Part shown: piece after piece, positions 7,157-24,625 of the stretch
Layout of the letters: each line of letters starts with the position of its first letter
Numbering within the stretch: position 1 is the first letter of the stretch
Virus record (IMG/VR): IMGVR_UViG_3300021425_000113
Coordinates: 1-30,965 of that record
Origin: a virus
DNA: 30,965 nt
Direction: 5' to 3' (one strand)
Notes under the pieces: generated by a model
What the model saw: the letters and a program-made list of their open reading frames with translations, nothing else
Database searches by the model: none
Told to the model about the DNA's origin: nothing
Position numbers and translations under genes: made by a program

Positions 7157-8752
7157 ATGGCAGAAGCCGCCCAAAAATTTGAAGAGCTTATCGTCCCCGA
7201 GGGCGGTATCGCGGATTTCGTCGGTACGGAAGAAGAAGTCGAGGCTATGGAAGCCGAAGACGCCAAGAAAGAGTTTGGCGAAGCCGGTATCGCGGAGTTC
7301 TCCGATGTTGCCAAACGGATGGCTGGTTATGGGCGTTTTGGTGACGACACACTAGCGCACGTTGAAACTGGCGAGCTGATTATTCCGAGGGCTTTGATCG
7401 AAGGTAACGAAAAGCTTCGTGAAGACATCTTCAATAACTTGCGGGAACAGGGTGTAGAAGATCCGGAACGGTATGTCGTTGGTTCCGAGGCAAACAGCCT
7501 GAACCCTGACACCGGCTTACCGGAGTTCTTTTTTAAGAAGCTTTTCAAAGGCATCTCAAAAGCCTTCAAAGGCGTTGTAAAAGTATTTAAGAAGATAGCT
7601 CCTATCGTTCTGCCCATGGTCCTCGGACCACTCGTCGGTCCTATTGCCGCAGGTGCTTTGGGTTCTGGTATCGCTACTTTGATGAACGGTGGAGACCTTG
7701 GGGACGCTCTTAAAGCGGGTTTGACCGGTGGTCTTATGGGAGCAGCAAGCAGCTTCGGTGGCGGGTTCCTAAAAGGTTTCCAAAAAGGTGGTTTCCAAGG
7801 TGGTCTAAGCGGCGGTATTGGTTCTCTCAAAGCGTCAGTAGGTTCAATGTTTGGCGGAGCAAGGACCCCGGCCCCTGTTGAGTTCAAGCAGGCTGCTGCA
7901 CGGCCGACGGAGTCTAATTTAGGGGCCTCAGCTAATTTAGGGGCCACGACTGACGTTGCAAATGCAGCCACCGCCGGCGTTGATTCGGCAAACATAACAC
8001 CACTTACTCCGTCGATAAAACCTGAAAATCTCACCTCTCCCACCTCTACCGCCGATGTTGCCGCTGCCGCGACAAGGGTCCCGCCTAAGCCCACAACACC
8101 CGACTTTAACACCTTTGCGTCGAAGCCACCTGTTACTTCAACGGTACCGGTTACCTCGGGTGACGGTTTCTTTTCAAAAGCACAAAACCTTTTCTTCCCG
8201 GATCCCAAGACTGATCCAAGCTTTTTACGCCAGTACGGACCCCTCGCCGTGGCAGGTCTGGGCGTAGCTGGTGCAGCGGGCGGTTTTGAGAGACCAAAAT
8301 TTGAACCAGAACTGCCAGAAGGGTTTGAACTAACCGGTGCTCAGTTATATGAGCAAAACCCACAGCAATACACGCCACGAATTAATTACGGTCCTGCCCC
8401 GACTGTTTCAGACGTTAGAACGGAAAGTCGCTTTGGGGACGTGGTTTCTACAGCGCCTCAATCTTTTTATCAGCCCTACCCGTTTACTCGCCCAGAGGGT
8501 GAAGGCTCCGTATTTGATAGACCGATGATTACGATGGCCGAGGGTGGTGAAGTGTTTCCGCGCCGCAACGGCGGCATCATGCCTAACGAGGGTACGCCGG
8601 GGGAAGACAGTGTGAGAGCCATGCTTATGCCCGGAGAGTTTGTTATGACTACGGACGCGGTCCGTGGCGCGGGGAACGGGAACCTTAACAAAGGTATAAA
8701 CAACATGTACTCTGTTATGCGAAACCTAGAAAGCCGGGGAAGAGCGTCCTAA
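7157..8752 (+). CDS. Internal virion / tape-measure-like protein with a glycine-rich hydrophobic segment
   Basis: A 531-residue protein. Near residues 62-75 it has DDTLAHVETGELIIPRAL and near the C-terminus GEDSVRAMLMPGEFVMTTDAV. Both are variants of the DD-x-x-A-x-L-x-P-G-E-F-V-(I/V) motif usually found in tape measure or internal proteins. Residues 125-150 are lysine- and phenylalanine-rich (FFKKLFKGISKAFKGVVK), then 147-175 form a G/A/P-rich hydrophobic stretch able to contact membrane, followed by a G/F-rich segment. The middle (about 240-330) is disordered T/P/A-rich sequence. The start has GGAG about 9 bases upstream. The stop overlaps the next start (TAATG). A role in genome ejection is inferred from composition and from its large internal-protein neighbours. 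Confidence 0.55.
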   Translation: MAEAAQKFEELIVPEGGIADFVGTEEEVEAMEAEDAKKEFGEAGIAEFSDVAKRMAGYGRFGDDTLAHVETGELIIPRALIEGNEKLREDIFNNLREQGVEDPERYVVGSEANSLNPDTGLPEFFFKKLFKGISKAFKGVVKVFKKIAPIVLPMVLGPLVGPIAAGALGSGIATLMNGGDLGDALKAGLTGGLMGAASSFGGGFLKGFQKGGFQGGLSGGIGSLKASVGSMFGGARTPAPVEFKQAAARPTESNLGASANLGATTDVANAATAGVDSANITPLTPSIKPENLTSPTSTADVAAAATRVPPKPTTPDFNTFASKPPVTSTVPVTSGDGFFSKAQNLFFPDPKTDPSFLRQYGPLAVAGLGVAGAAGGFERPKFEPELPEGFELTGAQLYEQNPQQYTPRINYGPAPTVSDVRTESRFGDVVSTAPQSFYQPYPFTRPEGEGSVFDRPMITMAEGGEVFPRRNGGIMPNEGTPGEDSVRAMLMPGEFVMTTDAVRGAGNGNLNKGINNMYSVMRNLESRGRAS

Positions 8753-9930
8753 TGACTCAAAACACAACCCAGACGGTAATCCAAAGACCGGCTCCCGAGA
8801 TAGAAGCCGCCGGACTAGGTATATTTAACGCAGCGCAAGACCTTATTAACCAGCCTACCCCCGTTCCAACCCAGCAGATCGCTGGTTTTTCTGGTTTACA
8901 GTCCGCTGCCACAGGGTTAGCCGGATCTGGGATTGGCAACTATGTTCCGTATTTAGAGCAAGCGGGATACACTACCGGTGATGCTCAAGGCGCTATTGCA
9001 GGCGTACTACCGGGAGCCCAGCCGTATCAGCAAGCGGCAACGCAGTATATGACACAAGCTGGGCAGCAGATACCGGGTCAAGTTGCGGCAGCGCAACAAG
9101 GCCTCATGCAAGCTGGGCTGTTTGGTCAAGGGGCCGCGGCCCTCGGCATGGCAGGTCTTGCTCCTTCTAGGGCTCAAGCATTTTTTAACCCGTATGAAGA
9201 CGCTGCCGTTCAGCAGGCAATGCAGGACATTCGTCGTGAAGGCGACATTGCACAGCAGGGACAACGGGCACAGGCTGTAGGCGCTGGTGCTTTTGGCGGA
9301 TCTCGGTCAGCAATCGCAGAGGCGGAACTTGGTCGCAATGTCTTGCAGCAACAAGCACGGACCGCGGCTCAGATGCGTCAAGCCGGTTTCGAAAGCGCCG
9401 CTCAGAGAGCGCAGCAGGCTGCCCAGCTGTATGGTCAACTTGGTCAAGCCGGCGCTGGAACCGCGCTAAGTGCTGCGGAAGCTGCGGGACGTTTTGGATT
9501 GCAAGGCACTGAGCTAGGAAGCCGTGTTGGTGAGGGGCTGGGAAGTCTTGGTCTACAATATGGCAGCCTTGGTTTACAGGCTGGCGATGCACTAAGCACG
9601 TTGGGTCTTCGTCAGGCGGCCCTTGGTGAGACGGCACAGCAAATGGGTCAGCAACAAGCAGGCTTCTTGTTTGATATGGGCGCACGTCAGCAGGCTCAAC
9701 AGCAGGGTGAACTGGATGCGCTTTACCGCAACCAGATGGCGGCTTATCAGCAACCTTATCAGAATCTTGGGTTTGTTAGTGACATTCTTCGTGGTACACC
9801 ATCGTCTCAGATGACGAGCACCGCGGGTTACGTGGCACAAGCCTCGCCGGTACAGCAGTTCCTTGGAACGGGCATTGCAGGATTAACTGCCGCGGCAAAC
9901 GCTCAAAGAGTGTTTGGCAACAGCGGGTAG
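8752..9930 (+). CDS. Ala/Gln-rich internal virion protein (T7 gp14-like position)
   Basis: A 392-residue protein very rich in A, Q and G. It contains a marine-phage hallmark stretch around residues 145-200: FNPYEDAAVQQAMQDIRREG and GAFGGSRSAIAEAE, where NPY and GAFGGSR recur in many phage internal or ejection proteins. Long amphipathic helices (QQQARTAAQMRQAGFESAAQ) alternate with glycine-rich LGLQ repeats at about 255-290. It overlaps the preceding gene by one base (TAATG). Together with the two larger downstream genes it matches the order and size increase of T7 gp14-gp15-gp16, so I infer a DNA-ejection protein. There is no catalytic motif. Confidence 0.6.
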   Translation: MTQNTTQTVIQRPAPEIEAAGLGIFNAAQDLINQPTPVPTQQIAGFSGLQSAATGLAGSGIGNYVPYLEQAGYTTGDAQGAIAGVLPGAQPYQQAATQYMTQAGQQIPGQVAAAQQGLMQAGLFGQGAAALGMAGLAPSRAQAFFNPYEDAAVQQAMQDIRREGDIAQQGQRAQAVGAGAFGGSRSAIAEAELGRNVLQQQARTAAQMRQAGFESAAQRAQQAAQLYGQLGQAGAGTALSAAEAAGRFGLQGTELGSRVGEGLGSLGLQYGSLGLQAGDALSTLGLRQAALGETAQQMGQQQAGFLFDMGARQQAQQQGELDALYRNQMAAYQQPYQNLGFVSDILRGTPSSQMTSTAGYVAQASPVQQFLGTGIAGLTAAANAQRVFGNSG

Positions 9931-9941
9931 GAGTGAACAAA

Positions 9942-12674
9942 ATGAACAGATCTGTTATGAACCGTCAAATGTTTGCCAAGGGCGGACCGGTTAGATACAT
10001 GCAGCAGGGCGGTGTTGCGGCTCCTATGCCGATGGCGGCTCCTGCCCCGGCCCCTATGCCGATGGCACCTCCTCCTATGGCGGCACCTCCTCCTATGGAC
10101 CCGATGGCCGCGGCCCAAGAAGCAATTAATCCTGCGGAACTTGAGGGGATGTTAGCTCAAGCTTCTCAAACCATCGGTGATTTGGATCAGGCGGGAAGTT
10201 ACGAAGAAGTAATGAACATGATGCGCGGTGACGAGGCATCTGTTCAGGAGCGTCGTTCTGAGTTGGCTGGTCTGGTTGGGCCTGAAGACGCACAGCAAAC
10301 GCCTGAGTCTGTTTTGACTTTGGTTCAGCCTGTTATTCAAATGGCGTCGGTGGATCAAGGCATTGGCGGTCTGGCTCAAGAGCAGATGTCGGCTCCTGTT
10401 GAAGGAGACATGGCTGGCGGGATTATGTCTACAGTAGGAATGGGTGCTCCGGAGGGGCCGCCCCCTGTAAATTTTAATCAAGGCGGCGTAGTTCGCCGCC
10501 CGGGTCGATTTCCAGAAGTAATGCTACCGGATTTCACTTCGGTTATGGAGGCTCGACCATCGGGGTACCTCCCTCAAACGCCAATGTATCTTCTGCCTCC
10601 TCGGAGAATCCGCTTAGAAGACTTGGATCAACCTATTCCAGAGGCTATACGAGGCATGCCTCGGGACTACCGTGAAGAGGCTTCTTCGTACGAGCAGGAA
10701 ACGCTTGACGAGGGCGGAGCGCAGCTTCCGGACACGCAAGCGGCAATGGAGGGCACGGACCCTTCTTCAGAGTCTGCCGAACTGGCTACGGATACCGTTG
10801 ATCCGTTGGATAGCCTAATGTCTGAACTTGGCTACGGGGACGAAAGGTCTCTGGACGAGTACTTTCAGGAAAGCCGAGACTTATACAGAGGGTTAATCTC
10901 TGAAGCAGATCGGGAAGCCTCTAGATCCGACGTTAGAGAAGCTGCGAAAACTCAATTCCTTAGCGACTTAGGTAAGGCGGGTCTTCTTCTAGCTTCTCCC
11001 ACAGCTTCTCCAATGAGCTTCTTCGAGAAGCTTTCTGGAGCGGTTAGCGGAAGCGAAATGTTTGATAATTTGGCGAAGCAAGCCGCAGCAATTTCAGAGG
11101 CAGAGCGTGGGTTCCGCGATCAAGACCTTAAGCTGGACCTCGCCGCACTAACGGATGCTCAAAAACGATCCCTTGCGGACCAAGACGCTCGACGCGCATT
11201 GCAATTAAAGATGTTGGACGAAGGCGAAACGGATGCAAGCTTGTATTCTATATTTGGGCCGGATGGAAACCTTATTCAAACACGGGCTTACACGGATTCT
11301 GAGCTAAGAAATGTGACATCAAACCTAGGACCCGGATATACTATAAGGGAAACCGCAGAAGAAGATATTTCTGCGACGGGTGGTGGTTCTCAAGAACAAT
11401 ACTTTGTCGTAAATCCCGACACAAATAAGGTTGAACCCTTTGATTTTGGAGCCGGCCCGCAATCTAATATTTCTTTACAAGACGGTGCAGCTTACAACAA
11501 AGCGGCGGGCTTATTAGCTGGTTCCGGGCTTGTACTTGTAAGAGGCACTGACCTTAATCAATTTGGTCAGAGCGGTTCAGGTCGTAATCCAATCAACGTT
11601 CGAGACACTACAGGAGCTTACAATGACGGTGCTACTTTTTTAGTTGGCCCTTCTGAACTTAGTGAAATACAAACACAAAACCCCGGCTCTAATTTTGTTG
11701 TAACAGGATCTCAAGCTGGCGCTGTGACCGCCAACCTTCTTATCGAAGACAGTAGCGGGGCGCGGAGTATAGCGGCACAGGCAAACAATGGGTTGATTCT
11801 AAACGACGGCCTTATTCCGGGCGCTGGTGACTATGTTACAGTAAATCAATTGCAAGACGCCGGTTTTAGTAACATAACCTCGATTCCAGACACTGAAGTT
11901 ACAAAAATGCGTGAGGCGGTAGCGTATGGTAGGTACTTCCGTAGTCAGGCCGAAGGAAGGTACGACGAACCGACGTCAGAAATGCAAGATTATAGTAAGT
12001 CCCAAATTTCTGAGTTAAACGAAGACCCAATAAGCAACAGAGAGTATAATGCTCTCAGAAACCGAATAAATTTTGATATGAATCTGTGGTCGAGTGAGCA
12101 GAGCGAAGATCTTGTGGCAGCTACCCGAGACGTAACCGGTTTGGGTTCTGTGGTGGCAAGGGCTGTGGATAGCGCCTTGGGTATCGTTGGTTTCGGTTTT
12201 ACATCAAAATCCGTACAAGCAAAACAAACAGCTAAACTATTTAATAAAATGGTACTTCCGGGTCTTGTCACAAACACCTCTCGTGTAAGTAACTTTGACA
12301 TGGAACAAGTACAGCCGATACTGCTTGACGTTGGTGTATTTGGTTCCGACTCCACTCAGCTGGCAAAAATGGTTAGGTTGTACGATCTTCTTAAATACAA
12401 AGAAGCGGCTATTATTAATACGGGAATGCAAGAGTCTCGTTACGGCGGTCTTATGACTGCTCAACGGTTTAGAGACTTGCAGACTGACCTTTCTGCTGTT
12501 CGAAGTTCTTTAGCCTTCTTCGGCAACAACTTCCAACAAGAGGTTCTTCAACAGTTCCCTAATCTAAGCGACGAAATGCAAAGAAGTATTGTCAACAATG
12601 ACCCTGAGCGTCAGGGACTGTACAACGCTATCCGGCAGCAAGACGCGGCATTTCGTTCGGGGTCAAGCAACTAA
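9942..12674 (+). CDS. Large internal virion protein (gp15-like position), Pro/Met/Ala-rich N-terminus
   Basis: About 910 residues. I choose ATG 9942 over the in-frame GTG 9933, because AGGAG lies about 8 bases before the ATG and overlaps the GTG. Residues 20-55 are low-complexity P/M/A repeats from short DNA repeats (cctatgccgatggc). A conserved-looking patch follows, with ELAGLVGPEDAQQTPESV and IQMASVDQGIGGLAQEQM, a block I recognise from uncharacterised proteins of pelagic phages. The rest is largely helical and acidic, with no known enzyme motif. Size and order suggest the T7 gp15 counterpart, but no sequence signature proves it. Confidence 0.6.
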   Translation: MNRSVMNRQMFAKGGPVRYMQQGGVAAPMPMAAPAPAPMPMAPPPMAAPPPMDPMAAAQEAINPAELEGMLAQASQTIGDLDQAGSYEEVMNMMRGDEASVQERRSELAGLVGPEDAQQTPESVLTLVQPVIQMASVDQGIGGLAQEQMSAPVEGDMAGGIMSTVGMGAPEGPPPVNFNQGGVVRRPGRFPEVMLPDFTSVMEARPSGYLPQTPMYLLPPRRIRLEDLDQPIPEAIRGMPRDYREEASSYEQETLDEGGAQLPDTQAAMEGTDPSSESAELATDTVDPLDSLMSELGYGDERSLDEYFQESRDLYRGLISEADREASRSDVREAAKTQFLSDLGKAGLLLASPTASPMSFFEKLSGAVSGSEMFDNLAKQAAAISEAERGFRDQDLKLDLAALTDAQKRSLADQDARRALQLKMLDEGETDASLYSIFGPDGNLIQTRAYTDSELRNVTSNLGPGYTIRETAEEDISATGGGSQEQYFVVNPDTNKVEPFDFGAGPQSNISLQDGAAYNKAAGLLAGSGLVLVRGTDLNQFGQSGSGRNPINVRDTTGAYNDGATFLVGPSELSEIQTQNPGSNFVVTGSQAGAVTANLLIEDSSGARSIAAQANNGLILNDGLIPGAGDYVTVNQLQDAGFSNITSIPDTEVTKMREAVAYGRYFRSQAEGRYDEPTSEMQDYSKSQISELNEDPISNREYNALRNRINFDMNLWSSEQSEDLVAATRDVTGLGSVVARAVDSALGIVGFGFTSKSVQAKQTAKLFNKMVLPGLVTNTSRVSNFDMEQVQPILLDVGVFGSDSTQLAKMVRLYDLLKYKEAAIINTGMQESRYGGLMTAQRFRDLQTDLSAVRSSLAFFGNNFQQEVLQQFPNLSDEMQRSIVNNDPERQGLYNAIRQQDAAFRSGSSN

Positions 12675-12689: not shown

Positions 12690-15600
12690 ATGGCAGTAAC
12701 TTCTGGAATGAAAGTAGGCGGCGGTTCGGCGGGCATAACTTTAGGTGTAGCTGGATTGGGATCAAAACAGCCGGATCCTGTTTCCGCATCCCAAGAGGCG
12801 GAGCGGGACAGAGAGGCGGCGGAACGGATCCAAGAGGAGGCAGCCGTAGCCGTAGACGAACTAGGCTTTACTTTTAACCCGCTTGTTTTTGAAAGTTCTG
12901 ACGAGTTCGAAGCTACTCTTCGATCCTTAAATGCTGAAACACCGAGCCGGGAAAGTCGAGATAAGCTAGCTCGATATGTCGCCAGTTTTATAGCCGAGCA
13001 AAACGCGGATATTTTCGAAGACTTGGGTTATGACACCGAAGACTTTTACGATTCTTTAATGCGCGGAGACAGCTTGTTACGCGGTAGAATACCCGGTTTT
13101 GATCAGCCTACTGGGGCTGATCAAATAGTCAGAAACCTAATTACCGACAGTGAGGGTAATCCTCTGCCGGAGGCAACTATTGCGGGAACAGCTTTTAGGT
13201 ATGCACCTCAAGCAATTGCCGCCCGTCAAGCAATGGTTTCTACCTTCCCCCGAATATACGGTTCGCTACAGGGAGCGGGACCTGTTAAAAGAACAGTAGC
13301 TGCCGGTTTGGGTTCTTTGGCTGCGGGAACTGGTGCAGCTCTTTTAACTGACGCGGCTGTATCACAAGCTTTTGGGCCAGAGGCACCTGTATTGCCTACC
13401 ATGACATCTGCCGTGAAGAGAAATATCGGTCAGACTGCGGTAGATGCGATTATGGGTCTTTCTTTGTTAAGAGAATTACCCACAGAGAAAACATCTGTCA
13501 TGGCATCAGCGATACCACGACTTTTGTTTCCAGACCGACCGCAAGATTTTGTAGGACCTGACCAACCTACAGGCGCAAAACCTTTTATGCAACGGGGTCT
13601 TTCCGGTTTGGAAGGAATGGCTATAGGGGTTGGTCAAAGATACGCTGCCGCACCGGTAAGAACCATGCTTAGCGAGGTTCCTTCAGAGGCTGGTGTGATA
13701 GCCGGGGCGGCCGTTGTACCTTTTTTTGCAAACCCTAATGACGGGTTAGCTAGGTTAGGGTTTGAGGTTTTAGGTGGTGTGGCGGGAGAAGCCACCACAA
13801 GCAGTACCCGTGGCGCTTATAACCTCGGTAACGCGATGGTTAATCAGATTAAACGGCAGGTTAGTAAAATGGGAGGTGGTGCTAGTTTAAAAGCGGAAGA
13901 CGCTTTTTTACGAGACTTGTTCACTTCTCTTCGCTTTAATGATGACCTAACAGATGAGCAGGTTCGTTTTGCCATAGAAGCTCTAGAAAACCCTCCCCGA
14001 GATGCAGCAGGCAACGTCATAGCGTTATCGCCCGCGCAGCTAACACAATTACCTACCTTTAGAGATCTTGACAGAACTTTAAGCCAGATTGACGAGACGC
14101 GGTTCTTAGAAGAGAAAAATGCGGCGACTTTGCGCTTTCAAGAGTTCCTAACAAATGAAATACGGGCAACATATCAAAGAAATAATCCAGCACAGCTGGT
14201 ATACCTGTCTGATCTCCTGTCTATTAAATTCGATGATTCTATTCGAGATGAATTGGACGCAGGATTAACCCGTGTTCAAGAGGCGGCGGCAACGGTTCGT
14301 CGAACTGATACAGAAGACTTAGTTCAGGGCACAACACAACCGGGAACAGTTAGGTCTGCGGACCAACTGGGTCAGGCTGTCCTTAACGTTTGGAGCCAGA
14401 CTTTGGCGGCTAGCCGACGTAGGGAAAGAGCTTTTTACGAAAAAATTCCAAGCAACACGCTTATAGATCGTTACTTTAATGCCGACGGAGAGCCTGTAGA
14501 ATTACCAAACTACATACGGGTTTATGATCGACTTATGGAAGAAGCGGCTCCTTCCGGATCGCCAACTCAGAGTGAAAGGATGGCTGGTGCACGGTCTGAG
14601 TTTGTGGCTCGAATGGGCCGCCCTCTTTCTAATTTTGTGGAACAGAGCCGGGCTCAGATAACCGGTACGGAGCCAAGTAAGGTGGTTGAAAGTCTTGGCC
14701 GACTTAGAGAGGCCAATACAAGGGCTAGACGAGCTCTTGTTGGCACCGCTTCTGAAGGAATTGTAGAGGACTTTTTAGATCAGAAAAATGCGCAGGGCGT
14801 TGCATATAGAGATCTTCCGTTACAGGAGCGGGTAGACTTGTTAAACGCCGAGGCTGATAGATTGAGGCAAATCCTTGGTCCGGGAAATAGACAGATGCGG
14901 ATTTTATCGGCACAAGCCTATGAGGCTATGGCAAATTTATTAACCGCTCAAAACCGAGCGGCTTTAATTCCAACAACTCGGACGGGTGAACCACCCTCTT
15001 TTCCCACAGTAGGGGAATTGGTGAGTATGCGTTCTGCCGCTTTAAATAAAGCAGTTGCGTTAATGGACGGGGCTAACCCGGATAGAGCTCAAGCTCGTCT
15101 CTTTTTTAAGATGGTCAGTGCGTTTGACGACGACATTGATAACATGACTGAGTTTGCGGAAGACCTTCCTTTAGATGTCAGAACCCCACTGGCCACCGCC
15201 AGAGCTTACAGTCGGTCCCTCAACGAGATCTTTACACGCAGCACTTTGGGTTTACAGATAAACCCAACGAGACATGGCGTACCCACTATTTTCCCCGAAG
15301 AAATACCCTACGTTTTTAATCGTGGTGCAAACGAGTTTTTAAATGCTCGTACTGCGGAAGAGTTTGCAACGCTAAAAAGATACATAGACGAAAATGAGTT
15401 ACTGGATCCCCGGTTTAGGGGTTCAATAGAAAATCTAGAAAACCCAGAAAGTCTTTCTGAAGAATTAATTAGATTTGCCGCAGACCAAAATCTTTATAGA
15501 ATAAATCCAAACACAAATGAGCTTGAGTTTGACACTGCGTCATACACTCGGTTTTTAGAAGAAAATAGCGTGGTTATTGACTTTCTAGAGGGTATAGGAA

Positions 15601-17036
15601 GAAACGTACGGGAGGACTTGGAAAACCCGTATCGTTTTGAGGTCCTAAGACTTACGTATGAAAGGCAAGCGGAACTAGACCGGAAAAACGCTTATTCAAA
15701 AAACAGTCTGTTAAGCTTTATTACACCGGAACGGGCTGATCTCGTTTCAGACGGTCCTACCCCGGGCGTAGTACCTAGAGAAGGTACACAAGATCCAACA
15801 TCTATCATCACCGAATGGATAGACAACCCACAGACAACTTTTGCCAATTTAAACAGAACACTGAGCGATATAAACAGCGCCCCGCTTCTTAATGAAATAA
15901 CAGACGAGGATCGTGTTGTAGATTCTCCCGAAGAGATCATATCGAGAATTAAAAGCTCGATAGAGGGTCCTACACGAACCGCAAGAGGCCCTGTTTTTGG
16001 AAGTGCAAGCTCACGGGAAGACAATTTAATTCCTAGCACACCCGAGGGTGATCCCGCGCCAGAAGGAACTTATCTATCTAGGTCGGATGCTATTGCTCGC
16101 AGAAGGGCCTCAGCCGTTGGAGGTCTTAAAACAGCCATTATTGAAGATGCACTGCGTTTTGGGAACATTGAGGGTTCAAACCCAAGCTTTCTAAAAATGC
16201 ATCAAAGGCTTTTTCAACCTCGTCCGGGGATGAGCGGTCTTAGTATGGCAGACTGGATGCTAGAAAACGACCTCTGGACGGCGGACATAAAATCAAGCTT
16301 TGAGCAAAGTCTCTCAGAAGCGGTTAGACTTGAGCGAAATGTTAGAGACGGAATACCTTTTAACCTTGATGAAGCAGACGCTACTTATTTTGCTTCGGTT
16401 ATAGCTTCCTTAGCTGGCTCTTCTGCTGCGGGTAAGATTTACGAAACTTTGGGCGGATCAGCCTCAAGCATTATTGCTCAAAGCCAAGGTGCCCGAGCTG
16501 GTAGAGAAGCGCTTGCTCGTCTTCTAGATACTCTTCCAAATGTTACTAAAGCTCAGATAGCTATAGAACTCATGAACGATCCTCAGAAACTCGCAGCAGC
16601 TATGAGAAGGTTCCAAGAGTTAGGGGAGCCGGGAGTAACAGGCGTTCCAAAGACTAGATTTTCAGACGATGTAAGAACAACCTTTAACTATATTTTGAAT
16701 GGGACGGGTGACTATTTAATTTATCGGGGTCTCCAGATGTTAGACGCCGCCACACCAAGTTCTCCGTCTGTGGTAAGAGAAAGTGCCCGAGAGATTCAAG
16801 AACTAACTCGTGAGGATGACGAAGCCGTTGCAGAAAGAGTGCGTAGTCGAAATCTACCAGCACCAGCACCTGCCCCGCCAGCCGCAGTCCCCGCGCCAAC
16901 TCCCACGGCCCCCGCGCCACTAGCATCCGTCGATCCGGGGCGTTACCAAATGTTGTTTGGGCCAAACGATCCTAATATGGACATCGTTCAACAGCGCTCG
17001 GGTCAGCAGGGTGGTATTGGGAGCTTGTTCGGCTAA
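12690..17036 (+). CDS. Very large internal virion protein (gp16-like position)
   Basis: A 1448-residue protein, the largest in the window. The N-terminal 25 residues are glycine-rich with a mild hydrophobic stretch (AGITLGVAGLG). An E/A/R-rich helix follows at 32-56, then GAGPVKRTVAAGLGSLAAGTG (about 195-215) and other hydrophobic/glycine segments to about 370 that could insert in membranes. Residues 380-1370 are long charged helices. The C-terminus (about 1390-1425) is an extended A/P linker ending in a QQGGIGSLFG tail like those of other phage internal proteins. I see no lytic transglycosylase signature of the T7 gp16 N-terminus. It overlaps the next gene by one base (TAATG). An ejection-conduit role is inferred from size and order. 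Confidence 0.6.
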   Translation: MAVTSGMKVGGGSAGITLGVAGLGSKQPDPVSASQEAERDREAAERIQEEAAVAVDELGFTFNPLVFESSDEFEATLRSLNAETPSRESRDKLARYVASFIAEQNADIFEDLGYDTEDFYDSLMRGDSLLRGRIPGFDQPTGADQIVRNLITDSEGNPLPEATIAGTAFRYAPQAIAARQAMVSTFPRIYGSLQGAGPVKRTVAAGLGSLAAGTGAALLTDAAVSQAFGPEAPVLPTMTSAVKRNIGQTAVDAIMGLSLLRELPTEKTSVMASAIPRLLFPDRPQDFVGPDQPTGAKPFMQRGLSGLEGMAIGVGQRYAAAPVRTMLSEVPSEAGVIAGAAVVPFFANPNDGLARLGFEVLGGVAGEATTSSTRGAYNLGNAMVNQIKRQVSKMGGGASLKAEDAFLRDLFTSLRFNDDLTDEQVRFAIEALENPPRDAAGNVIALSPAQLTQLPTFRDLDRTLSQIDETRFLEEKNAATLRFQEFLTNEIRATYQRNNPAQLVYLSDLLSIKFDDSIRDELDAGLTRVQEAAATVRRTDTEDLVQGTTQPGTVRSADQLGQAVLNVWSQTLAASRRRERAFYEKIPSNTLIDRYFNADGEPVELPNYIRVYDRLMEEAAPSGSPTQSERMAGARSEFVARMGRPLSNFVEQSRAQITGTEPSKVVESLGRLREANTRARRALVGTASEGIVEDFLDQKNAQGVAYRDLPLQERVDLLNAEADRLRQILGPGNRQMRILSAQAYEAMANLLTAQNRAALIPTTRTGEPPSFPTVGELVSMRSAALNKAVALMDGANPDRAQARLFFKMVSAFDDDIDNMTEFAEDLPLDVRTPLATARAYSRSLNEIFTRSTLGLQINPTRHGVPTIFPEEIPYVFNRGANEFLNARTAEEFATLKRYIDENELLDPRFRGSIENLENPESLSEELIRFAADQNLYRINPNTNELEFDTASYTRFLEENSVVIDFLEGIGRNVREDLENPYRFEVLRLTYERQAELDRKNAYSKNSLLSFITPERADLVSDGPTPGVVPREGTQDPTSIITEWIDNPQTTFANLNRTLSDINSAPLLNEITDEDRVVDSPEEIISRIKSSIEGPTRTARGPVFGSASSREDNLIPSTPEGDPAPEGTYLSRSDAIARRRASAVGGLKTAIIEDALRFGNIEGSNPSFLKMHQRLFQPRPGMSGLSMADWMLENDLWTADIKSSFEQSLSEAVRLERNVRDGIPFNLDEADATYFASVIASLAGSSAAGKIYETLGGSASSIIAQSQGARAGREALARLLDTLPNVTKAQIAIELMNDPQKLAAAMRRFQELGEPGVTGVPKTRFSDDVRTTFNYILNGTGDYLIYRGLQMLDAATPSSPSVVRESAREIQELTREDDEAVAERVRSRNLPAPAPAPPAAVPAPTPTAPAPLASVDPGRYQMLFGPNDPNMDIVQQRSGQQGGIGSLFG

Positions 17037-18199
17037 TGGAAGGTTTCTTAGACATGCTAAATCTTTCGGAAGGTGTTAAACACGCCTTGCGAAGAGGAGA
17101 CGTGAAGGAGGCTTTTAGTCAGCAGTTTGATGAAACTGTATCCCCGGACCATCCCCAATACAATTTAGCGGACGCTAGAAGAGATTTCGTAGTTGGTCAA
17201 ATGCGAAGACCAAACTTGTACAAAGACGAACGGTATGCGGGTTTGCTTGACCAAGTCGCACAAGACGTGGCCCGCAACTCTATCTTTGTACAACCTGATG
17301 AGGAATTTGATTCAAGAGGCGTTGCAGGTTTTTTTGACCCATCAACCATGCAACTTATTTTCCCTAGAAGTGATGCGGAAGATTTTGCAACAAGAACTCA
17401 GTTCGACAGCCCTTATGACCAAGCAGTGGCCTCGGCTTCCAATATTTATGAGGAAGATGCCGATCCGGAAGCGCGTTATAGATACTACAATATGCTACGC
17501 GGCGTTTACATGAAACCAAACGAAACAGCCCTTCAGCTGCGAGACAAGTTGGACAGGGATATTATTAGGAATGATATCCTTGAACAGCTTCTTAAAATTG
17601 CTCCCGAGATGTCTCAAAACGTATTTTATCCGGAAGAGCAGCCGGGCGACACGATTGTGATCGCGGGTTACGAGCTATCGGATGACGGTCAATTACAACC
17701 GATGATCAATGACGACAAGACGGTTGCATCTCATGAAGCAATACACAGAGCGTTTACCGTAACGGACTACCCACGAAACACTAACTTGCGTAGGGCTTGG
17801 GATCAGTCCGGAAACAGCACAGAGGGCTGGACCAGCGCTGCAACGGCCTATGACAGGCTTCACGGTTTTGAAGAGCTGACAACAAGGCTTTTAACCGCCG
17901 CGGGCGCGAACGACAGGGCGTTTTTTGGTGCGGCAGCAGACGCATATCCTAGAGCACCTCAATTTGGTTTTAACTATGACACCAAAGAAAAAGTTCGGGA
18001 AAAGTTCTGGAAGGACATGTTGGACTTTACCGACCGGTCTCAAGGTCCTTCCGTTTTAGATACCGCAACGGATTCGTTTATCTTTGACAAAAGCGCTTTG
18101 GACAGCTGGGTAACGCCTGCTACAGAGCTTTATTACGAAGGTAAAATACCGGAGCCATACGCTACAATATTTGCGCAACGCTATTTAAACCAAGACTAA
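17036..18199 (+). CDS. Putative HExxH zinc metallopeptidase in the virion gene cluster
   Basis: A 387-residue protein whose start overlaps the preceding giant internal protein (TAATG), so it is probably co-translated with the virion block. Residues 233-237 read HEAIH, an HExxH zinc site with catalytic Glu234, in the context VASHEAIHRAF. About 42 residues downstream, HGFEELTTRLL supplies Glu279/Glu280 as a possible third ligand, the gluzincin arrangement. The N-terminal 200 residues are acidic and helical with a short beta region (NVFYPEEQPGDTIVIAGYEL) just before the motif. No signal peptide is visible. Possible roles are cell-wall or capsid proteolysis, or anti-host activity on ejection. The motif is seen directly; peptidase activity and virion location are inference. 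Confidence 0.6.
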   Translation: MEGFLDMLNLSEGVKHALRRGDVKEAFSQQFDETVSPDHPQYNLADARRDFVVGQMRRPNLYKDERYAGLLDQVAQDVARNSIFVQPDEEFDSRGVAGFFDPSTMQLIFPRSDAEDFATRTQFDSPYDQAVASASNIYEEDADPEARYRYYNMLRGVYMKPNETALQLRDKLDRDIIRNDILEQLLKIAPEMSQNVFYPEEQPGDTIVIAGYELSDDGQLQPMINDDKTVASHEAIHRAFTVTDYPRNTNLRRAWDQSGNSTEGWTSAATAYDRLHGFEELTTRLLTAAGANDRAFFGAAADAYPRAPQFGFNYDTKEKVREKFWKDMLDFTDRSQGPSVLDTATDSFIFDKSALDSWVTPATELYYEGKIPEPYATIFAQRYLNQD

Positions 18200-19644
18200 G
18201 ACAGCCACTCCCTCGCCTCTTCCCCTAAAACTTTGCCGGCTATGTCGCTCTTCTCTCGAAGCGCTTTCAAAATCTTCTCGTCAATGGTGTTAGGGCAAAC
18301 TAGGTCTACATACGTTACGTTGTTCTTCTGCCCGATCCGGTGAGCGCGGTCCTCGGACTGTAGCCTGATTTCAAGATCGTAGCTGTTGCTGTAGTAGATA
18401 ACGGTGTTTGCTTGCGTCAGGGTGATGCCGTATCCGCCGGTACGAGCCTGACCCACGAAGAAACGAAGTGGGTCTTCTGGGTCTTGGATCCTGTTCACGA
18501 TTTCTTGACGCTCGTCTTGCGGTGTAGCACCATAATAGGTTGCGACAGTTTCCTCGCCGTATAGCTTAGACAAGTTAGCTGCAATGTTTTTAATGTCGTA
18601 GGTATATGTTGCCCAAATGATACACTTACCTTGAGTTTCTTCTACCGCTTCAAGAAGGTGTGACATGCGGTTGTTGTGTATCGGTTGGATCTCGCCTTCG
18701 TCCGGCTGAATAAAACCACAACAAATCTGCTGCATACGCATGATCTGAGTCAAAACGCTGGCTGTTGTAGACAGCTCACCATTGTCCAGCTTGGCGAGCG
18801 CTAACTTTTTCATCTGTAAATACAAGCGCTTCTGCTCTTCGGTGAGAGACACTTCCCTGCGCAGGTAAACTTTCTCGGGCAGGTCCAAGCAATCCTCTTT
18901 CAAAATGCGGTTGCTGAACTTGTCTAGCTTCTTCGTTAATTCATCAAGCCTTCGGTACCCCGTTATCTTATTAAAGGATCGATGCCCCATGCGCTGAACA
19001 TGCATTACTGCATACCTGCCCTGAAAAGCGAAATAGCTGCGCAAGCCCAAAGCTTTTTGATCTAAAAAAGAGCACTGACTAAACAAGTCCATCGGAGACT
19101 TCGTTACAGGGGAACCAGTAAGTATGCGCCGGTACTTACTGAGATCCTTTAGCTTCACAATATTCTTTGTGCGTTTCGCCGTGCGGTTCTTGATCGTCGT
19201 GCTTTCGTCCACGATAACCATATTGTCTGGGTTGAAGTTTAAGAAGTTCATCGCGGCCTGTGCCCCGCGTGGCGTGGAGAAGGCTTCTACATTCATTACA
19301 AATATTTTAAGACCATCGAACGGTTGATCTGTAATCTCCTCCAGATCCGCCTTGTTCTTGTTTGTTTGCGCGGGTATCCAGCGATAAATCTTGCGCGGGA
19401 TCCTGTCTGGTAAATGTGTGGGGATTTCTCCGCGCACCCAGTTGTCGTATACGCCCTTTGGTGCAATAACTAATACCGTGTCTATCTTACCCTGCTCATA
19501 CAAGATACCTATTGTATCAATGGCAACCTTGGTTTTACCGGTGCCCATCTCCATAAATAGCGCGTAGTAGGTCGCGGCCCACGAATCTTTGAGCGCTTTC
19601 ATCTGGTGCTCGTATGGCTGCGTCTTGAAAACAAAGTCTTTCAT
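18196..19644 (-). CDS. SNF2-type (superfamily 2) DNA helicase/ATPase
   Basis: A 482-residue SNF2-like ATPase. ATG 19644 is chosen because GGAG sits 7 bases upstream and homology begins at once (YEHQMKAL, a Q-like motif). Motif I is MEMGTGKTK (about 31-39), motif II VIVDEST (DEST box) and motif III LTGSPVTKSPMDLF. The C-terminal half has the IIWATY and QARTGGYGITLTQA strands and the motif VI region RLQSEDRAHRIGQ with TIDEKI beyond, typical of the SNF2 C-lobe. Such phage enzymes are thought to remodel protein-DNA complexes or assist replication and recombination. It is the only - strand gene among the virion and replication blocks. Its stop overlaps the convergent metallopeptidase stop by 4 bases with no terminator, and its promoter region is shared with the divergent replication genes. 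Confidence 0.9.
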   Translation of the reverse strand: MKDFVFKTQPYEHQMKALKDSWAATYYALFMEMGTGKTKVAIDTIGILYEQGKIDTVLVIAPKGVYDNWVRGEIPTHLPDRIPRKIYRWIPAQTNKNKADLEEITDQPFDGLKIFVMNVEAFSTPRGAQAAMNFLNFNPDNMVIVDESTTIKNRTAKRTKNIVKLKDLSKYRRILTGSPVTKSPMDLFSQCSFLDQKALGLRSYFAFQGRYAVMHVQRMGHRSFNKITGYRRLDELTKKLDKFSNRILKEDCLDLPEKVYLRREVSLTEEQKRLYLQMKKLALAKLDNGELSTTASVLTQIMRMQQICCGFIQPDEGEIQPIHNNRMSHLLEAVEETQGKCIIWATYTYDIKNIAANLSKLYGEETVATYYGATPQDERQEIVNRIQDPEDPLRFFVGQARTGGYGITLTQANTVIYYSNSYDLEIRLQSEDRAHRIGQKNNVTYVDLVCPNTIDEKILKALREKSDIAGKVLGEEAREWLS

Positions 19645-19663
19645 TTTTTTCTCCAGAAAGTGA

Positions 19664-19704
19664 TTGACGTGTCTGTTGTATGCGATTATATCTACCTTTG
19701 TCAA
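19664..19704. promoter_or_regulatory. Divergent sigma70-like promoter region between helicase and replication operon
   Basis: On the + strand TTGACG (19664-19669) is followed, after 17 bases, by TATATC (19687-19692), pointing into the replication operon. On the - strand TTGACA (19704-19699) faces the SNF2 helicase with an imperfect -10 (CATACA or ATACAA) 16-17 bases on. The two -35 boxes form the ends of the region, so the promoters overlap almost completely and RNA polymerase could occupy only one at a time. Confidence 0.55.
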
Positions 19705-19741
19705 GGCCGTACCAGTGCCTTTAACAACGAAAGAGGTAATA

Positions 19742-20323
19742 ATGATCGATAACTTAATATCAGAAATGGAAGAGGACTTTGAGGAGACCAGTGCGTCCTC
19801 TCTTGAGAAGCTAGACCAATCCGGTCTGTCCTCCATCGCAGCTCTCGCTCGACAAATCAGACAGAAAGAAGAAAGCATTCAACGCCTTGAGCAGGAGCTT
19901 AAGGAAGAGAAGAAAGCTTTGGTAAAGCTAACCGACGAAGACATGCCCGGCATGTTGGCAGAGGTTGGTGTATCTTCCTTTGTTCTGGAAGACGGATCTA
20001 CCGTCGATGTCAAACAGACTTACGGCGCTTCCATCTTGGTCAAAAACCGCGAAACCGCATTTCAGTGGCTTCGGGACAATGGTTACGACGACATCATAAA
20101 GAACAGCGTCTCGACGCAGTTTGGTCGTGGTGAAGATGACGAGGCTCGCAAGTTCCGTGAAATGGCGGCGAGCAATGGGTTTGAAACTCAGCAGAAAACT
20201 GAGGTTCATCCCATGACACTTCGTGCGTTTGTGAAAGAGCGTGTGGAACTCGGGGAGGACTTCCCGATGGAACTGTTCGGCGCATGGGTCGGACAAAAAG
20301 CTGTAATCAAGAAAGGTAAATAA
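19742..20323 (+). CDS. Coiled-coil replication-module protein, function unknown
   Basis: A 193-residue protein starting at ATG 19742 (AGAGG upstream; the same frame is open further upstream, but that covers the promoter). Residues 24-65 form a heptad-rich coiled coil (ARQIRQKEESIQRLEQELK). The C-terminal two thirds are mixed alpha/beta, with SSFVLEDGSTVDVKQ, a FQWLRDNGYDDIIKN helix and EVHPMTLRAFVKERVELG. It lies 2 bases before the SSB-like gene. I recognise the layout from phage replication modules but not a named family. A helper of the SSB-like protein or a nuclease-inhibitor-like (Gam-type) role is possible, based only on the coiled coil and position. Confidence 0.65.
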   Translation: MIDNLISEMEEDFEETSASSLEKLDQSGLSSIAALARQIRQKEESIQRLEQELKEEKKALVKLTDEDMPGMLAEVGVSSFVLEDGSTVDVKQTYGASILVKNRETAFQWLRDNGYDDIIKNSVSTQFGRGEDDEARKFREMAASNGFETQQKTEVHPMTLRAFVKERVELGEDFPMELFGAWVGQKAVIKKGK

Positions 20324-20325
20324 TT

Positions 20326-21105
20326 ATGGCACAAGAATTGGCTAAAACTAAAAAGGCTGAGGTAGCCGCATTTGATCCAAGCATGTTCGAGGAAGACGCT
20401 GGGGTTGGTATGGAGAACCTAGATCAAGATGATCTGGCGCTACCCTTCCTGAAAGTCCTGTCGGGTAACGATCCGGTGCTGGACACAAACGAAGTTGCTC
20501 GCAAGGGCGACATCTATAACACCGTGACCGGTGAAGTGTACAAAGGCAAAGACGGTGTCCGTGTTGTACCTTGTGCGTACCAACGTCGGTTCATTCAGTG
20601 GGCACCTCGTGGTGTTGGATCCGGTGCTCCGGTTCAAATCTACGATGCCGGCGAGGCTCGCCCAAAGACTGAACGGTCGCCTGACGATAACAAAGATTAT
20701 CTGATGGATGGTAGCGGTGACTATATCGAAGAGACGCACCAGCACTACGTTCTCCTGCTGAAGGACGACGGTACTTTTGAAACAGCCTTGATTGCTTTGA
20801 AGTCAACGCAGTTGAAGAAGTCACGTAAGTGGAACTCGATCATCGCATCGCGGACCATGCAGGGTAAGAACGGACCCTTCACACCACCCCGTTTCTCTCA
20901 CGTTTACCATCTGAAGACGGTCAGCGAAGAGAACTCGAAGGGCAGCTGGCACGGTTGGGAAATGTCGTGCGATGGCCCCGTGTCCGAGGCGTTTATGTAC
21001 AAACGCGCTAAGGAGTTTGCGACCAGCATCTCAGCAGGAGATGTCGTTGTTAAACACGCCAACGAGGATAACTCCGCCTCCGACAGCTCGGACATCCCGT
21101 TTTAA
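20326..21105 (+). CDS. Probable single-stranded DNA-binding protein (SSB-like)
   Basis: A 259-residue protein. The C-terminus is a flexible acidic tail ending SDSSDIPF; the final DIPF matches the tip of bacterial SSB proteins, which docks replication partners. The core (about 35-235) is beta-rich with aromatic/basic strands (VRVVPCAYQRRFIQWAPRG, HQHYVLLLKDDGTFETALI, LKKSRKWNSIIASR), as expected for an OB-fold-type binder. It sits between the coiled-coil gene and the primase and is followed at once by an intrinsic terminator, so it is likely made in larger amounts than the downstream enzymes. Homologues in phages are often labelled hypothetical. The DIPF tail is observed; ssDNA binding is inference. 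Confidence 0.6.
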   Translation: MAQELAKTKKAEVAAFDPSMFEEDAGVGMENLDQDDLALPFLKVLSGNDPVLDTNEVARKGDIYNTVTGEVYKGKDGVRVVPCAYQRRFIQWAPRGVGSGAPVQIYDAGEARPKTERSPDDNKDYLMDGSGDYIEETHQHYVLLLKDDGTFETALIALKSTQLKKSRKWNSIIASRTMQGKNGPFTPPRFSHVYHLKTVSEENSKGSWHGWEMSCDGPVSEAFMYKRAKEFATSISAGDVVVKHANEDNSASDSSDIPF

Positions 21106-21115
21106 GTTAACTTTT

Positions 21116-21143
21116 GGTGGGGGGAAACCCCCACCATTTTTTT
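21116..21143 (+). terminator. Intrinsic terminator between SSB-like gene and primase
   Basis: GGTGGGGG (21116-21123), a GAAA tetraloop (21124-21127) and CCCCCACC (21128-21135) form a perfect 8-bp stem, followed by A and seven T (21137-21143). The primase ribosome site GGAGG begins on the next base (21144), so the terminator sits inside the operon and presumably acts as a partial terminator. Confidence 0.85.
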
Positions 21144-21153
21144 GGAGGATCAA

Positions 21154-22686
21154 ATGTCAGTAAAAAAGTTTATGTCTATCTTCGATGGCCTGCAGCAGGC
21201 TTACGGATACTTCCGGATAGACAAAGAAAGCTCGTCCGGCAAAAGCGTTGGTAAGGCGGGCATACTGCGCGAACCACGGACCAAGGACCTGTGGGAACGG
21301 CACCTGTCCGGCACCGGCAACGGGTTAGGTATCATCCCCATCAACGAGGACAACTCTTGTAAGTGGGGTTGTATTGATATCGACCAGTACCCCTTGGACC
21401 ACACAGCGCTGATAGATAAGATACGGAAGCTCAAGCTTCCTTTAGTTGTCTGTAGGTCGAAGTCCGGTGGCGCTCACTGCTTCCTGTTTTCCAAGGATTG
21501 GGTAGACGCAAAAGATTTCCAGAAGGCGCTCAAGTGCATGGCGTCAGCTCTGGGTTATGGGGAAAGTGAGATCTTTCCTAAACAGGTTGTCCTGCACCTT
21601 GAACGGGGTGACGTGGGTAACTTCCTGAACCTGCCTTACTACAACGCAGAAGAAGGGCTTCGTTATGCTTTTCTGGACGACGGAACATCCGCGACACTGG
21701 AGGAGTTTTTCGATCTTCACAAAAAGTATACTCAGACAAAAGAGCAGATAACCAAGCTTCAGGTTGTAGATACCGGCGAAACAAAGGTCTTGGCCGACGG
21801 ACCACCGTGCTTACAGGTCTTGTGTAAGAACAAGGTTAGCGAAGGTGGTCGCAACAACGGACTGTTCAACATCGGGGTGTATCTGCGTAAGGCTTTTCCA
21901 GACAGCTGGGAGGCCGAGATACTGAACTACAACATGCAGTACATTGACCCTCCCCTGCCCCTCGCAGAAGTCAATGCGGTGGCAAAGCAGGTCGAGCGTA
22001 AGGATTACGCATACAAGTGTAACGACGCGCCCATAAACTCTCATTGTAACAAGGAGTTATGCTTTACCCGTAAGTTCGGGGTAGGGACGGGCACACAAGG
22101 CGCATCCATTGCGAACTTGCGTAAGTACAACTCGACACCACCCGTCTGGTTTATGGACGTCAACGGTGAGCCGCTGGAGCTGGACACAGATGCCCTGCTT
22201 CACCAGCCTACCTTCCAGAAAGCCTGTATGGAGCAGCTAAACCACATGCCACGGTCAGTGGCAAAGGTGCAGTGGGAAGGTCGGATATCTACTCTCATGA
22301 ATGAGATGAAGCAAAACGAAAGCAGCATCATCGAGGTGGCTCAGGACGCTAGTGTCAGCGGTCAGTTTTATGATTATCTGGAAGAGTTTTGCCGTCACCT
22401 ACAGCAAGCTCAGGATAAGGAAGAGATCCTCCTGCGTAAGCCTTGGACTGACGAAGAGGCGGGTAAGACATATTTCCGTCTGAAAGACTTTGAGGGTTTC
22501 TTACGCAAGAACAAGTTCAGCGAGTACAAGACCCATAAAATAGCGCAGCGTTTACGTGATATTAATGGAGAAAGCACTGTTATAAGAATTAAATCACGGA
22601 GCGTTCGTGTCTGGGAAATACCCGCGTTCGACAGCTCTGACGTGTCCATCCGGACGCCACGGTTCGGGACGGAGGCCCCGTTCTAA
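21154..22686 (+). CDS. Archaeo-eukaryotic-type primase (PrimPol-like, TOTE/phage class)
   Basis: A 510-residue primase. ATG 21154 has GGAGG 5 bases upstream; an in-frame TTG at 21142 overlaps the terminator and is rejected. The AEP catalytic core lies at about 1-190: the metal-binding DhD motif is CIDIDQY (Asp75, Asp77), followed by CRSKSGGAHCFLF with the sxH-type His108. Residues about 225-305 form a helical primase C-terminal region (GGRNNGLFNIGVYLRKAF), then a Cys/His cluster (YKCNDAPINSHCNKELC) that could bind zinc. The final 150 residues are helical, ending in a winged-helix-like segment (YFRLKDFEGFLRKNK). No helicase motor is fused, unlike many AEP-helicase proteins; a UvrD-type helicase is encoded next. 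It overlaps the following gene by one base. Confidence 0.85.
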   Translation: MSVKKFMSIFDGLQQAYGYFRIDKESSSGKSVGKAGILREPRTKDLWERHLSGTGNGLGIIPINEDNSCKWGCIDIDQYPLDHTALIDKIRKLKLPLVVCRSKSGGAHCFLFSKDWVDAKDFQKALKCMASALGYGESEIFPKQVVLHLERGDVGNFLNLPYYNAEEGLRYAFLDDGTSATLEEFFDLHKKYTQTKEQITKLQVVDTGETKVLADGPPCLQVLCKNKVSEGGRNNGLFNIGVYLRKAFPDSWEAEILNYNMQYIDPPLPLAEVNAVAKQVERKDYAYKCNDAPINSHCNKELCFTRKFGVGTGTQGASIANLRKYNSTPPVWFMDVNGEPLELDTDALLHQPTFQKACMEQLNHMPRSVAKVQWEGRISTLMNEMKQNESSIIEVAQDASVSGQFYDYLEEFCRHLQQAQDKEEILLRKPWTDEEAGKTYFRLKDFEGFLRKNKFSEYKTHKIAQRLRDINGESTVIRIKSRSVRVWEIPAFDSSDVSIRTPRFGTEAPF

Positions 22687-22832
22687 TGACCCCCGCGGAC
22701 TACTTTCGTCGAAACAAAAAGATCTACGAAATGTATCTGAACCGCATGACTATGACAGCTATCGGGGCTCGCTTTCACATTAGTAGAGAGCGGGTCCGAC
22801 AAATCATCCGGAGGTTGGAGAAAGATGTTTAG
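22686..22832 (+). CDS. 48-residue HTH protein resembling sigma factor region 4
   Basis: A short gene filling the space between primase and helicase. ATG 22686 shares its A with the primase stop (TAATG), and its stop TAG 22830-22832 lies inside the helicase start (8-base overlap). The protein begins MTPADYFRRNKKIYEMYLN and continues MTAIGARFHISRERVRQIIR, the latter being the helix-turn-helix pattern of sigma70 region 4 (A-x-x-F-x-I-S-x-E-R-V-R-Q-I). Lacking other sigma domains, it could be a DNA-binding adaptor, an anti-sigma-like competitor or an autoregulator of this operon. The HTH resemblance is strong by eye; the function is unknown. Confidence 0.7.
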   Translation: MTPADYFRRNKKIYEMYLNRMTMTAIGARFHISRERVRQIIRRLEKDV

Positions 22833-24342
22833 AATATTTGGGCCGCCCGGAACGGGTAAGACAACAACACTATTGAACATGGTGGATGACGCACTGGCAT
22901 CGGGCATCGCCCCGAACCGGATTGCGTTTTTTGCTTTCACAAAGAAGGCTGCAAACGAAGCTAAAGAACGTGCGGCAGCGCGTTTTAATCTCGACCCCAA
23001 GAAAGATCTTGTATACTTCCGGACCCTGCACAGCATGGCTCTGGCCATGACGGACATTCAACCTACTCAGGTAATTCAGGACGCACACTATAAGGAACTA
23101 GGAGAGGCCATCGGCGTGAGGTTCGGCAACACCTCTTCGTACAATGCGGACAATGAAGTGGCTTCCGCAATAAGCTCCAGCGATCCAGTGCTAGGCCTGA
23201 TTAACCTAGCCAAGCTAAGAAAGGTCGGGCTTCGAGAGCAGTACAATTCGAGCAGCCTGAACGTGGACTGGAACGTGGTTAGCTACATCGATGAGTGTCT
23301 TACTAAGTACAAGCAAAGCATGGGTCTCTACGATTTCACAGACATGCTACAAGTGTTTATAGACCAGTCCGACCAGTGCTGTCCGTCTTTCGAGCTGACC
23401 TTTCTGGATGAAGCTCAAGACCTTTGCCCCATGCAGTGGGATATCGCACACATTCTAGATAAGAACAGCAACCGCATGTATGCCGCGGGTGACGATGACC
23501 AAGCTATTTATCGATGGGCTGGTGCAGACGTGGACCACTTCATTAACCTAGAGGGCGGTTCGGAAACACTCAGTCAGTCCTATCGTGTTCCTAGTCGTGT
23601 TCACGAAGTGGCAGAGAACGTCGTAAAAAGAATTACAAAAAGATTTCCTAAACGATATGAACCGCGGGCAGAGACGGGGCAGGTGTCGCGCATAAACATG
23701 GTGTCCTCACTAGACATGTCCGACGGCTCGTGGCTTATATTATCGCAGGCTGCGTACCATCTCCAAGGCATCGCAAACGACCTTAAATCTTCCGGATACC
23801 TGTTCAGCCACCGAGGTAATAGATCAATTAGCGAAAAGATTAGCGACGCGGTAAACGGCTGGGAGCAGTTACGTAAAGGCATGACGATCTCGGGCGAGAA
23901 CGCCAGAAAAGTCTATGCTTACATGTCGCTTAAGAACCGAGTTAAAAAAGGTTTTAAGAAGCTGCCGGCCTTAGCTGACGAAGATCAGGTAAGCTTGGAA
24001 GCGTTGCAAAAGGATCATGGTCTGGTCGCCACCATAGATATGATCTGGAGCGAAGCTCTGGATAAAATACCGGAGAGTGAACGGGCCTATATCACAGCTA
24101 TGCTGCGACGAGGCGAAAAGTTCAACGGATTGCCCCGTATCTCAACATCCACGATCCACGGATCAAAGGGCGGCGAGGCCGACAACGTCGTACTGATCAC
24201 GGACCTCAGCCCAGCGGCAGATGACGACATGCGTATCAATCCCGATGACATACACCGTGTGTTCTACGTCGGTGTTACCAGAACCAGAGACAAACTCTAC
24301 ATTGTCGAACCCGAAGATGTTACAAGGAGCTACTACATATGA
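22825..24342 (+). CDS. UvrD/Rep-type superfamily 1 DNA helicase
   Basis: A 505-residue SF1A helicase. Motif I is GPPGTGKTTT (residues 6-15), motif Ia FFAFTKKAANEAKER, motif II FLDEAQDLCPMQ (Asp195 region), motif III AAGDDDQAIYRWAGAD, motif IV QSYRVPSRVHE, motif V STIHGSKGGEADNVVLITD and motif VI VFYVGVTRTRDKLYIV. At about 505 residues it is shorter than cellular UvrD (about 700), so the 1B/2B subdomains are reduced. It probably unwinds duplex DNA with 3'-5' polarity at the fork or in recombination. It starts within the HTH gene and overlaps the DUF6378-like gene by ATGA, showing tight coupling. Confidence 0.9.
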   Translation: MFRIFGPPGTGKTTTLLNMVDDALASGIAPNRIAFFAFTKKAANEAKERAAARFNLDPKKDLVYFRTLHSMALAMTDIQPTQVIQDAHYKELGEAIGVRFGNTSSYNADNEVASAISSSDPVLGLINLAKLRKVGLREQYNSSSLNVDWNVVSYIDECLTKYKQSMGLYDFTDMLQVFIDQSDQCCPSFELTFLDEAQDLCPMQWDIAHILDKNSNRMYAAGDDDQAIYRWAGADVDHFINLEGGSETLSQSYRVPSRVHEVAENVVKRITKRFPKRYEPRAETGQVSRINMVSSLDMSDGSWLILSQAAYHLQGIANDLKSSGYLFSHRGNRSISEKISDAVNGWEQLRKGMTISGENARKVYAYMSLKNRVKKGFKKLPALADEDQVSLEALQKDHGLVATIDMIWSEALDKIPESERAYITAMLRRGEKFNGLPRISTSTIHGSKGGEADNVVLITDLSPAADDDMRINPDDIHRVFYVGVTRTRDKLYIVEPEDVTRSYYI

Positions 24343-24623
24343 CGCGGGAAGAGATCCTAGATCAAGCATTGAACCTAATTACCGGTGACAGGGCGAAGCA
24401 ATACGGCGACGCCAAGGATAATCATCTCGCAATTGCTACTGGCTGGAACCACATTATTCAAAAGGCTTATAAAACACACGGGACGCTGACGCCGGAACAC
24501 GTAGCTTTAATGATGGACTGGTTGAAAACATGCCGCCTTCTGACAGACATTCAACACGTTGATTCATGGGTGGACAAGGCGGGTTATACCGCGCTCGGTG
24601 GCGAGATAGCTACAAAGGATTAA
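24339..24623 (+). CDS. DUF6378-like protein
   Basis: A 94-residue helical protein with ILDQALNLITGDRAKQYGDA near the N-terminus and ALMMDWLKTCRLL followed by DSWVDKAGYTALGGE. This GDR...YGD / K..R / D...D.AGY pattern is typical of the small phage family DUF6378, whose biochemical role is not established. It is reminiscent of all-alpha nucleotide-pyrophosphatase-like folds, but no diagnostic metal-binding ExxE is clear. The ATGA overlap with the helicase and a 2-base gap to the DNA polymerase place it in the replication operon, so a nucleotide-pool role is conceivable. Confidence 0.7.
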   Translation: MTREEILDQALNLITGDRAKQYGDAKDNHLAIATGWNHIIQKAYKTHGTLTPEHVALMMDWLKTCRLLTDIQHVDSWVDKAGYTALGGEIATKD

Positions 24624-24625
24624 TC

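Follow-up and report, generated by a model that had tools for sequence, protein, structure and literature searches.

The gene at positions 17036–18199 (+) of the window, by which we mean the whole 30,965-nucleotide stretch analyzed here (a 31-kb linear virus record, possibly partial), is an optional occupant of a variable slot in a phage ejection module. It is encoded within the ejection cluster and coupled to a large ejection-type gene. Judged from its sequence, the 387-aa product is plausibly a zincin-like metallopeptidase. The explanation we favor, tentatively and with somewhat less than even confidence, is that this protein is a zincin-like metallopeptidase carried as optional cargo of the ejection module, probably in the virion. 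This explanation draws on the HExxH motif, its conservation in two lineages, the coupling to the large gene, and the variable slot, which carries enzymatic cargo in relatives. The slot context is the new element over the earlier observation of the motif. Compared with HExxH domains already described in ejected phage proteins, the gene is free-standing and poor in relatives, and its slot is prone to swaps.

A selected gene with an HExxH motif

The sequence-only reading of this DNA had drawn attention to HEAIH at residues 233–237, a downstream EE pair, and coupling by TAATG, all of which are present. The HEAIH codons (17732–17746, +) supply two candidate zinc ligands, H233 and H237, and a candidate general base, E234. 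The EE pair comprises residues 279–280 of the 387-aa open reading frame (codons 17870–17875, +) and includes a candidate third zinc ligand; further EE pairs are found at residues 89, 139, and 200. At 17034–17038 (+), TAATG combines the stop codon of the 1448-aa gene (12690–17036, +) with the start of the 387-aa gene, and the same one-base overlap occurs in the three relatives described below. The protein has a pI of 4.6, no Cys, and no membrane segment, which fits the cargo explanation. It lacks the GIGSL and EGG-type motifs that other slot proteins commonly have, and this counts against that explanation.

Three relatives of the protein were recovered from IMG/VR, one of them identical (L001) and two at 79% identity (L002 and L003). 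In keeping with the zinc site that had been proposed, H233, E234, H237, E279, and E280 are invariant in all three. At 79% identity, approximately 31% of five-residue sets would be invariant by chance, which bears on the invariance of E279/E280, and since these homologues provide only two divergent lineages, the retention of the residues argues weakly for a catalytic site. Comparison of the window with L003 gave a dN/dS of 0.17 for the whole gene and 0.084 at residues 226–245, with a synonymous change in the codon for H233. The value of 0.17 signifies purifying selection and thus indicates that 17036–18199 is a real, selected protein gene. Searches of phage and plasmid records (tblastn) and of a genome collection of 84,980 species returned no relatives of the protein, and its 67-aa putative catalytic stretch gave only chance-level matches in phage records.

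Possible membership in the zincins

The claim of a gluzincin zinc site is supported by the motif and by residue retention but not by profile matching. No match to the 387-aa protein was found among Pfam, PHROG, and NCBIfam profiles, curated peptidase profiles included, and no relative was found among PDB sequences. MPTase-PolyVal (PF18818, E up to 10), PF06114 (M78), and the DdrB-ParB profile, each tested directly, also gave no match. An AlphaFold2 model was unusable (pLDDT 37, pTM 0.26), with helices drawn at 234–241 and 268–288. The protein departs from the classical extended zinc-protease signature, which we take to be PS00142, in having Ala after HE and Ala two positions past the second His. 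The same is true of certain zincins beyond doubt, FtsH (HEAGH) for one. Given the lack of a profile or PDB match and the poor model, the zincin assignment stays that of a candidate.

It is conceivable, although rather unlikely in our view, that HEAIH is incidental and that the 387-aa protein has an accessory role in the virion or a structural one, without being an enzyme. Consistent with this idea, HExxH was seen 9 times in the unique frames of more than 250 aa from the fetched relatives, against 9.2 expected from composition, and the longest conserved stretches of the protein are its N-terminal part and residues 337–369 rather than HEAIH. The missing profile match points in the same direction. 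On the other hand, composition predicts only 0.0043 HExxH motifs in this His-poor protein (5 His), the sole carrier among the 16 main proteins of the window, for which the joint expectation is 0.039. The motif and EE blocks are invariant with synonymous drift, and other HExxH proteins recur at the equivalent place in relatives. Because HExxH occurs at about the chance rate across the relatives' frames, the motif alone is weak, and conservation and context must support it.

A variable slot behind the large ejection-type gene

The upstream 1448-aa gene was described as ejection-type from the sequence alone, and its product is homologous to the 'DNA transfer protein' of DSL-LC04 (hhalign E 1.9e-34). 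Its conserved C-terminal tail ends in GGIGSLFG. Preceding it are a 913-aa cluster protein (9933–12674, +), whose C-terminal part differs in L003, and a 392-aa protein (8752–9930, +) matching PHROG 4287, 'DNA ejection protein' (E 1.1e-8). On the other side of the 387-aa gene, the slot is bounded by a convergent SNF2-type helicase (18196–19728, −; PF00176 and PF00271), for which a longer open reading frame reads to 19878. The window phage belongs to a largely marine group. Its virion structural protein at 1818–3740 is related to that of phage DSL-LC04 at 43% and also to those of Roseobacter phages CRP-901/902, Pelagibacter phages HTVC023P/027P, and a Planktothrix phage. DSL-LC04 has a similar gene order in which the 'DNA transfer protein' gene faces a convergent nuclease and helicase with no gene between. 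Elsewhere in the window, a primase with a TOTE-conflict-system AEP domain (21154–22686, +; PF22548, E 5.8e-13) belongs to a replication module that also encodes Pam3 gp33/gp34-like proteins, and a 91-aa protein (28117–28392, −) is made up almost entirely of the C-terminal DNA-binding domain of DnaA (PF08299, E 8.6e-13).

The slot was surveyed in 160 fetched relatives, anchored on the SNF2 helicase, 91 of which have a complete large open reading frame. In these 91 loci, the spacing between the large open reading frame and the helicase ranges from none to about 2.7 kb. Two relatives whose helicase is 92% identical to that of the window (L012 and L013) have a homologous cluster and an empty slot. 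Other slots hold proteins of modular build, and several of these include an SLT transglycosylase domain (PF01464; E 6e-21 in L036 and 4e-21 in L067), which scored above cut-off in 13 of 36 records. On the cluster strand, up to a distance of 6 kb from the helicase, an HExxH motif is present in 6 of the 91 loci, which divide into the window-gene (P0001) type (L010 and L014), the L087 type (L087–L089), and an unrelated small open reading frame (L062). The P0001 type is additionally found in the window and L002, and no HExxH was found in the slot of the HTVC027P-type relatives (L090–L169). An unusual phage cargo in the slot is an HlyC-like gene of 144–157 aa directly behind the large ejection-type protein; it matches the HlyC-type acyltransferase profile at L041:4327–4779 (−; PF02794, E 9.6e-10) and has relatives in L049, L057, L082, and L084.

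Exchange of the neighboring large gene

Common DNA in the window and L003 extends over 8465–11223 and 16891–26196, and the stretch between has been replaced. The helicases are 97% identical and the HExxH proteins 79% identical, whereas the large proteins share only 26% identity. Despite this divergence, the large proteins have an identical C-terminal tail of ~39 residues. The tail type, LFPND...GIGSL (window 16891–17036), is conserved at the C-termini of very divergent large open reading frames at many loci and marks the window/L003 recombination breakpoint. It is possibly a packaging signal or a recombination joint.

These comparisons bear on a second explanation, in which the 387-aa protein would be a maturation peptidase that processes the phage's own ejection or head proteins, either ahead of packaging or in its course. 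A role of this kind has been proposed for the MPTase domain of P1 DdrB (PMC5512222). Beyond this precedent, the coupling of the gene to a large protein whose tail is identical in the window and L003, with a divergent remainder, would fit such a role. However, the tail type is also conserved in relatives without any HExxH protein, and the gene is absent from the homologous cluster of L012 and L013, which indicates that processing by the 387-aa protein is not generally needed. In addition, the main candidate substrate was swapped while the gene stayed. The persistence of the HExxH gene through the swap of its large neighbor fits cargo better than a peptidase specific to this one partner, and we regard a maturation role as improbable.

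HExxH modules beside transglycosylase domains

A separate HExxH module (GVAAHEMRHRGLERL) occurs in a 1243-aa slot protein of L087–L089 and L170–L173. In that protein, G(V/I)GSLSETARRMNEGG linkers lie between a ParB-like stretch, the module, and an SLT domain. The module is also found in other contexts in L176–L178, with HExxH and SLT in one protein in the L176 type, and it is absent from L174 and L175 (~85% identical in the best segment), which retain the SLT domain. This distribution indicates a module that moves between contexts and can be present together with SLT. More broadly, the slot proteins of L170 (5164–8892), L174, L175, L176, and L178 contain exchangeable modules (ParB-like, HExxH, and SLT), and the linkers are repeated as if they were recombination joints. 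AlphaFold2 gave an unusable model of the L087 HExxH module. Its sole match in phage records, at 33% over 84 aa, is KZY1 ORF46 (Zobellviridae; L189:7914–8591), a stand-alone HExxH gene annotated as hypothetical that keeps HEFRH, an HFNP stretch, and, as aligned, a downstream Glu. ORF46 has on one side a cluster that includes a protein matching PHROG 'internal virion protein' and is directly followed by a lysozyme gene, an arrangement that counts in favor of the cargo explanation. A single family uniting the HExxH proteins of the slot is not supported, as the window protein and the L087 module gave an hhalign probability of 0.4%, though the motif is in register.

The sequence-only reading had suggested that a protease might replace the transglycosylase, so that in the window lineage the 387-aa protein would be a substitute enzyme that opens the cell wall or envelope. 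The absence on which this idea was built holds for the window record, itself possibly partial: PF01464 was not found there or in L001–L003, L012, and L013, and the slot carries SLT in many relatives. As a general pattern, replacement does not stand, since HExxH and SLT occur together in one protein in the L087 and L176 types. Many relatives have neither, including 47–58 kb records without SLT or a slot HExxH. The window may also be a fragment, and to our knowledge the known murein peptidases use other zinc motifs. We therefore consider substitution very unlikely. Least credible of all is that the motif serves a different chemistry, for instance that of an alpha-ketoglutarate-dependent HExxH hydroxylase: HExxH does occur outside zincins (2025 N4 vRNAP preprint, PMC12633501), but no positive evidence suggests this for the window protein.

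Proposed function of the cargo

Returning to the metallopeptidase cargo that we favor, we infer its zinc chemistry, packaging, ejection, and target as follows. The protein would be a soluble, acidic, stand-alone zincin-like metallopeptidase in which H233, H237, and either E279 or E280 bind zinc and E234 activates water. It would be co-produced with the large ejection protein by termination-reinitiation and packed with or alongside it, and as infection begins it may act on proteins of the host or of the envelope.

A bolder proposal, which we consider doubtful, is that the hypervariable slot ending the ejection operon of this widespread phage group holds interchangeable DNA-delivered enzymes, with the window gene encoding a stand-alone metallopeptidase that is injected as an effector and represents a new peptidase family. 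If the slot does carry injected enzymes, it would be a systematic place to seek entry effectors in abundant uncultured viruses. The window gene would then be a compact, testable metallopeptidase without known relatives, and it would help explain the role of HExxH domains that are ejected, the one in the N4 virion RNA polymerase being an example.

Comparison with known systems

Among the domains of polyvalent proteins, zincin-like MPTases are the most frequent, and the N4 virion RNA polymerase is one of their carriers; they sometimes share a protein with a lysozyme or transglycosylase domain, and self-processing and effector roles have been proposed for them (Iyer et al. 2017, PMC5512222). In the N4 polymerase, which is ejected, an HExxH motif has also been assigned to domain C1 (2025 preprint, PMC12633501). 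The earlier statement that such a factor is not commonly described for podovirus-like ejection machinery was thus too strong, as N4 is a podovirus with a reported zincin-like domain. Like the polyvalent MPTases (N4 vRNAP C1 and P1 DdrB), the window protein has HExxH and a downstream Glu. Those MPTases are encoded with virion-packaged, injected phage proteins (PMC5512222), and the window gene lies in an ejection cluster. In contrast to them, the window protein is a stand-alone 387-aa open reading frame rather than a domain of a giant multidomain protein, and it has no detectable sequence relation to them. It is also missing the His with which strand 2 is described to end in one phage-type MPTase clade, Phe being at the tentatively corresponding place.

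A further parallel is the T7 gp16 transglycosylase, an enzyme carried with the ejection proteins. Neither the 387-aa protein nor the window record contains a transglycosylase domain, unlike gp16, but in relatives of the window an SLT protein fills the equivalent slot. Another likeness in arrangement is to the L087/L176 module and KZY1 ORF46, in which SLT or lysozyme lies beside HExxH. They differ from the window protein in being shorter and, in the L087 type, fused to SLT, and the profile comparison is not significant. These are likewise HExxH proteins in or at an ejection cluster, and they and the window protein have a similar local sequence, K-x-VA-x-HExxHR.
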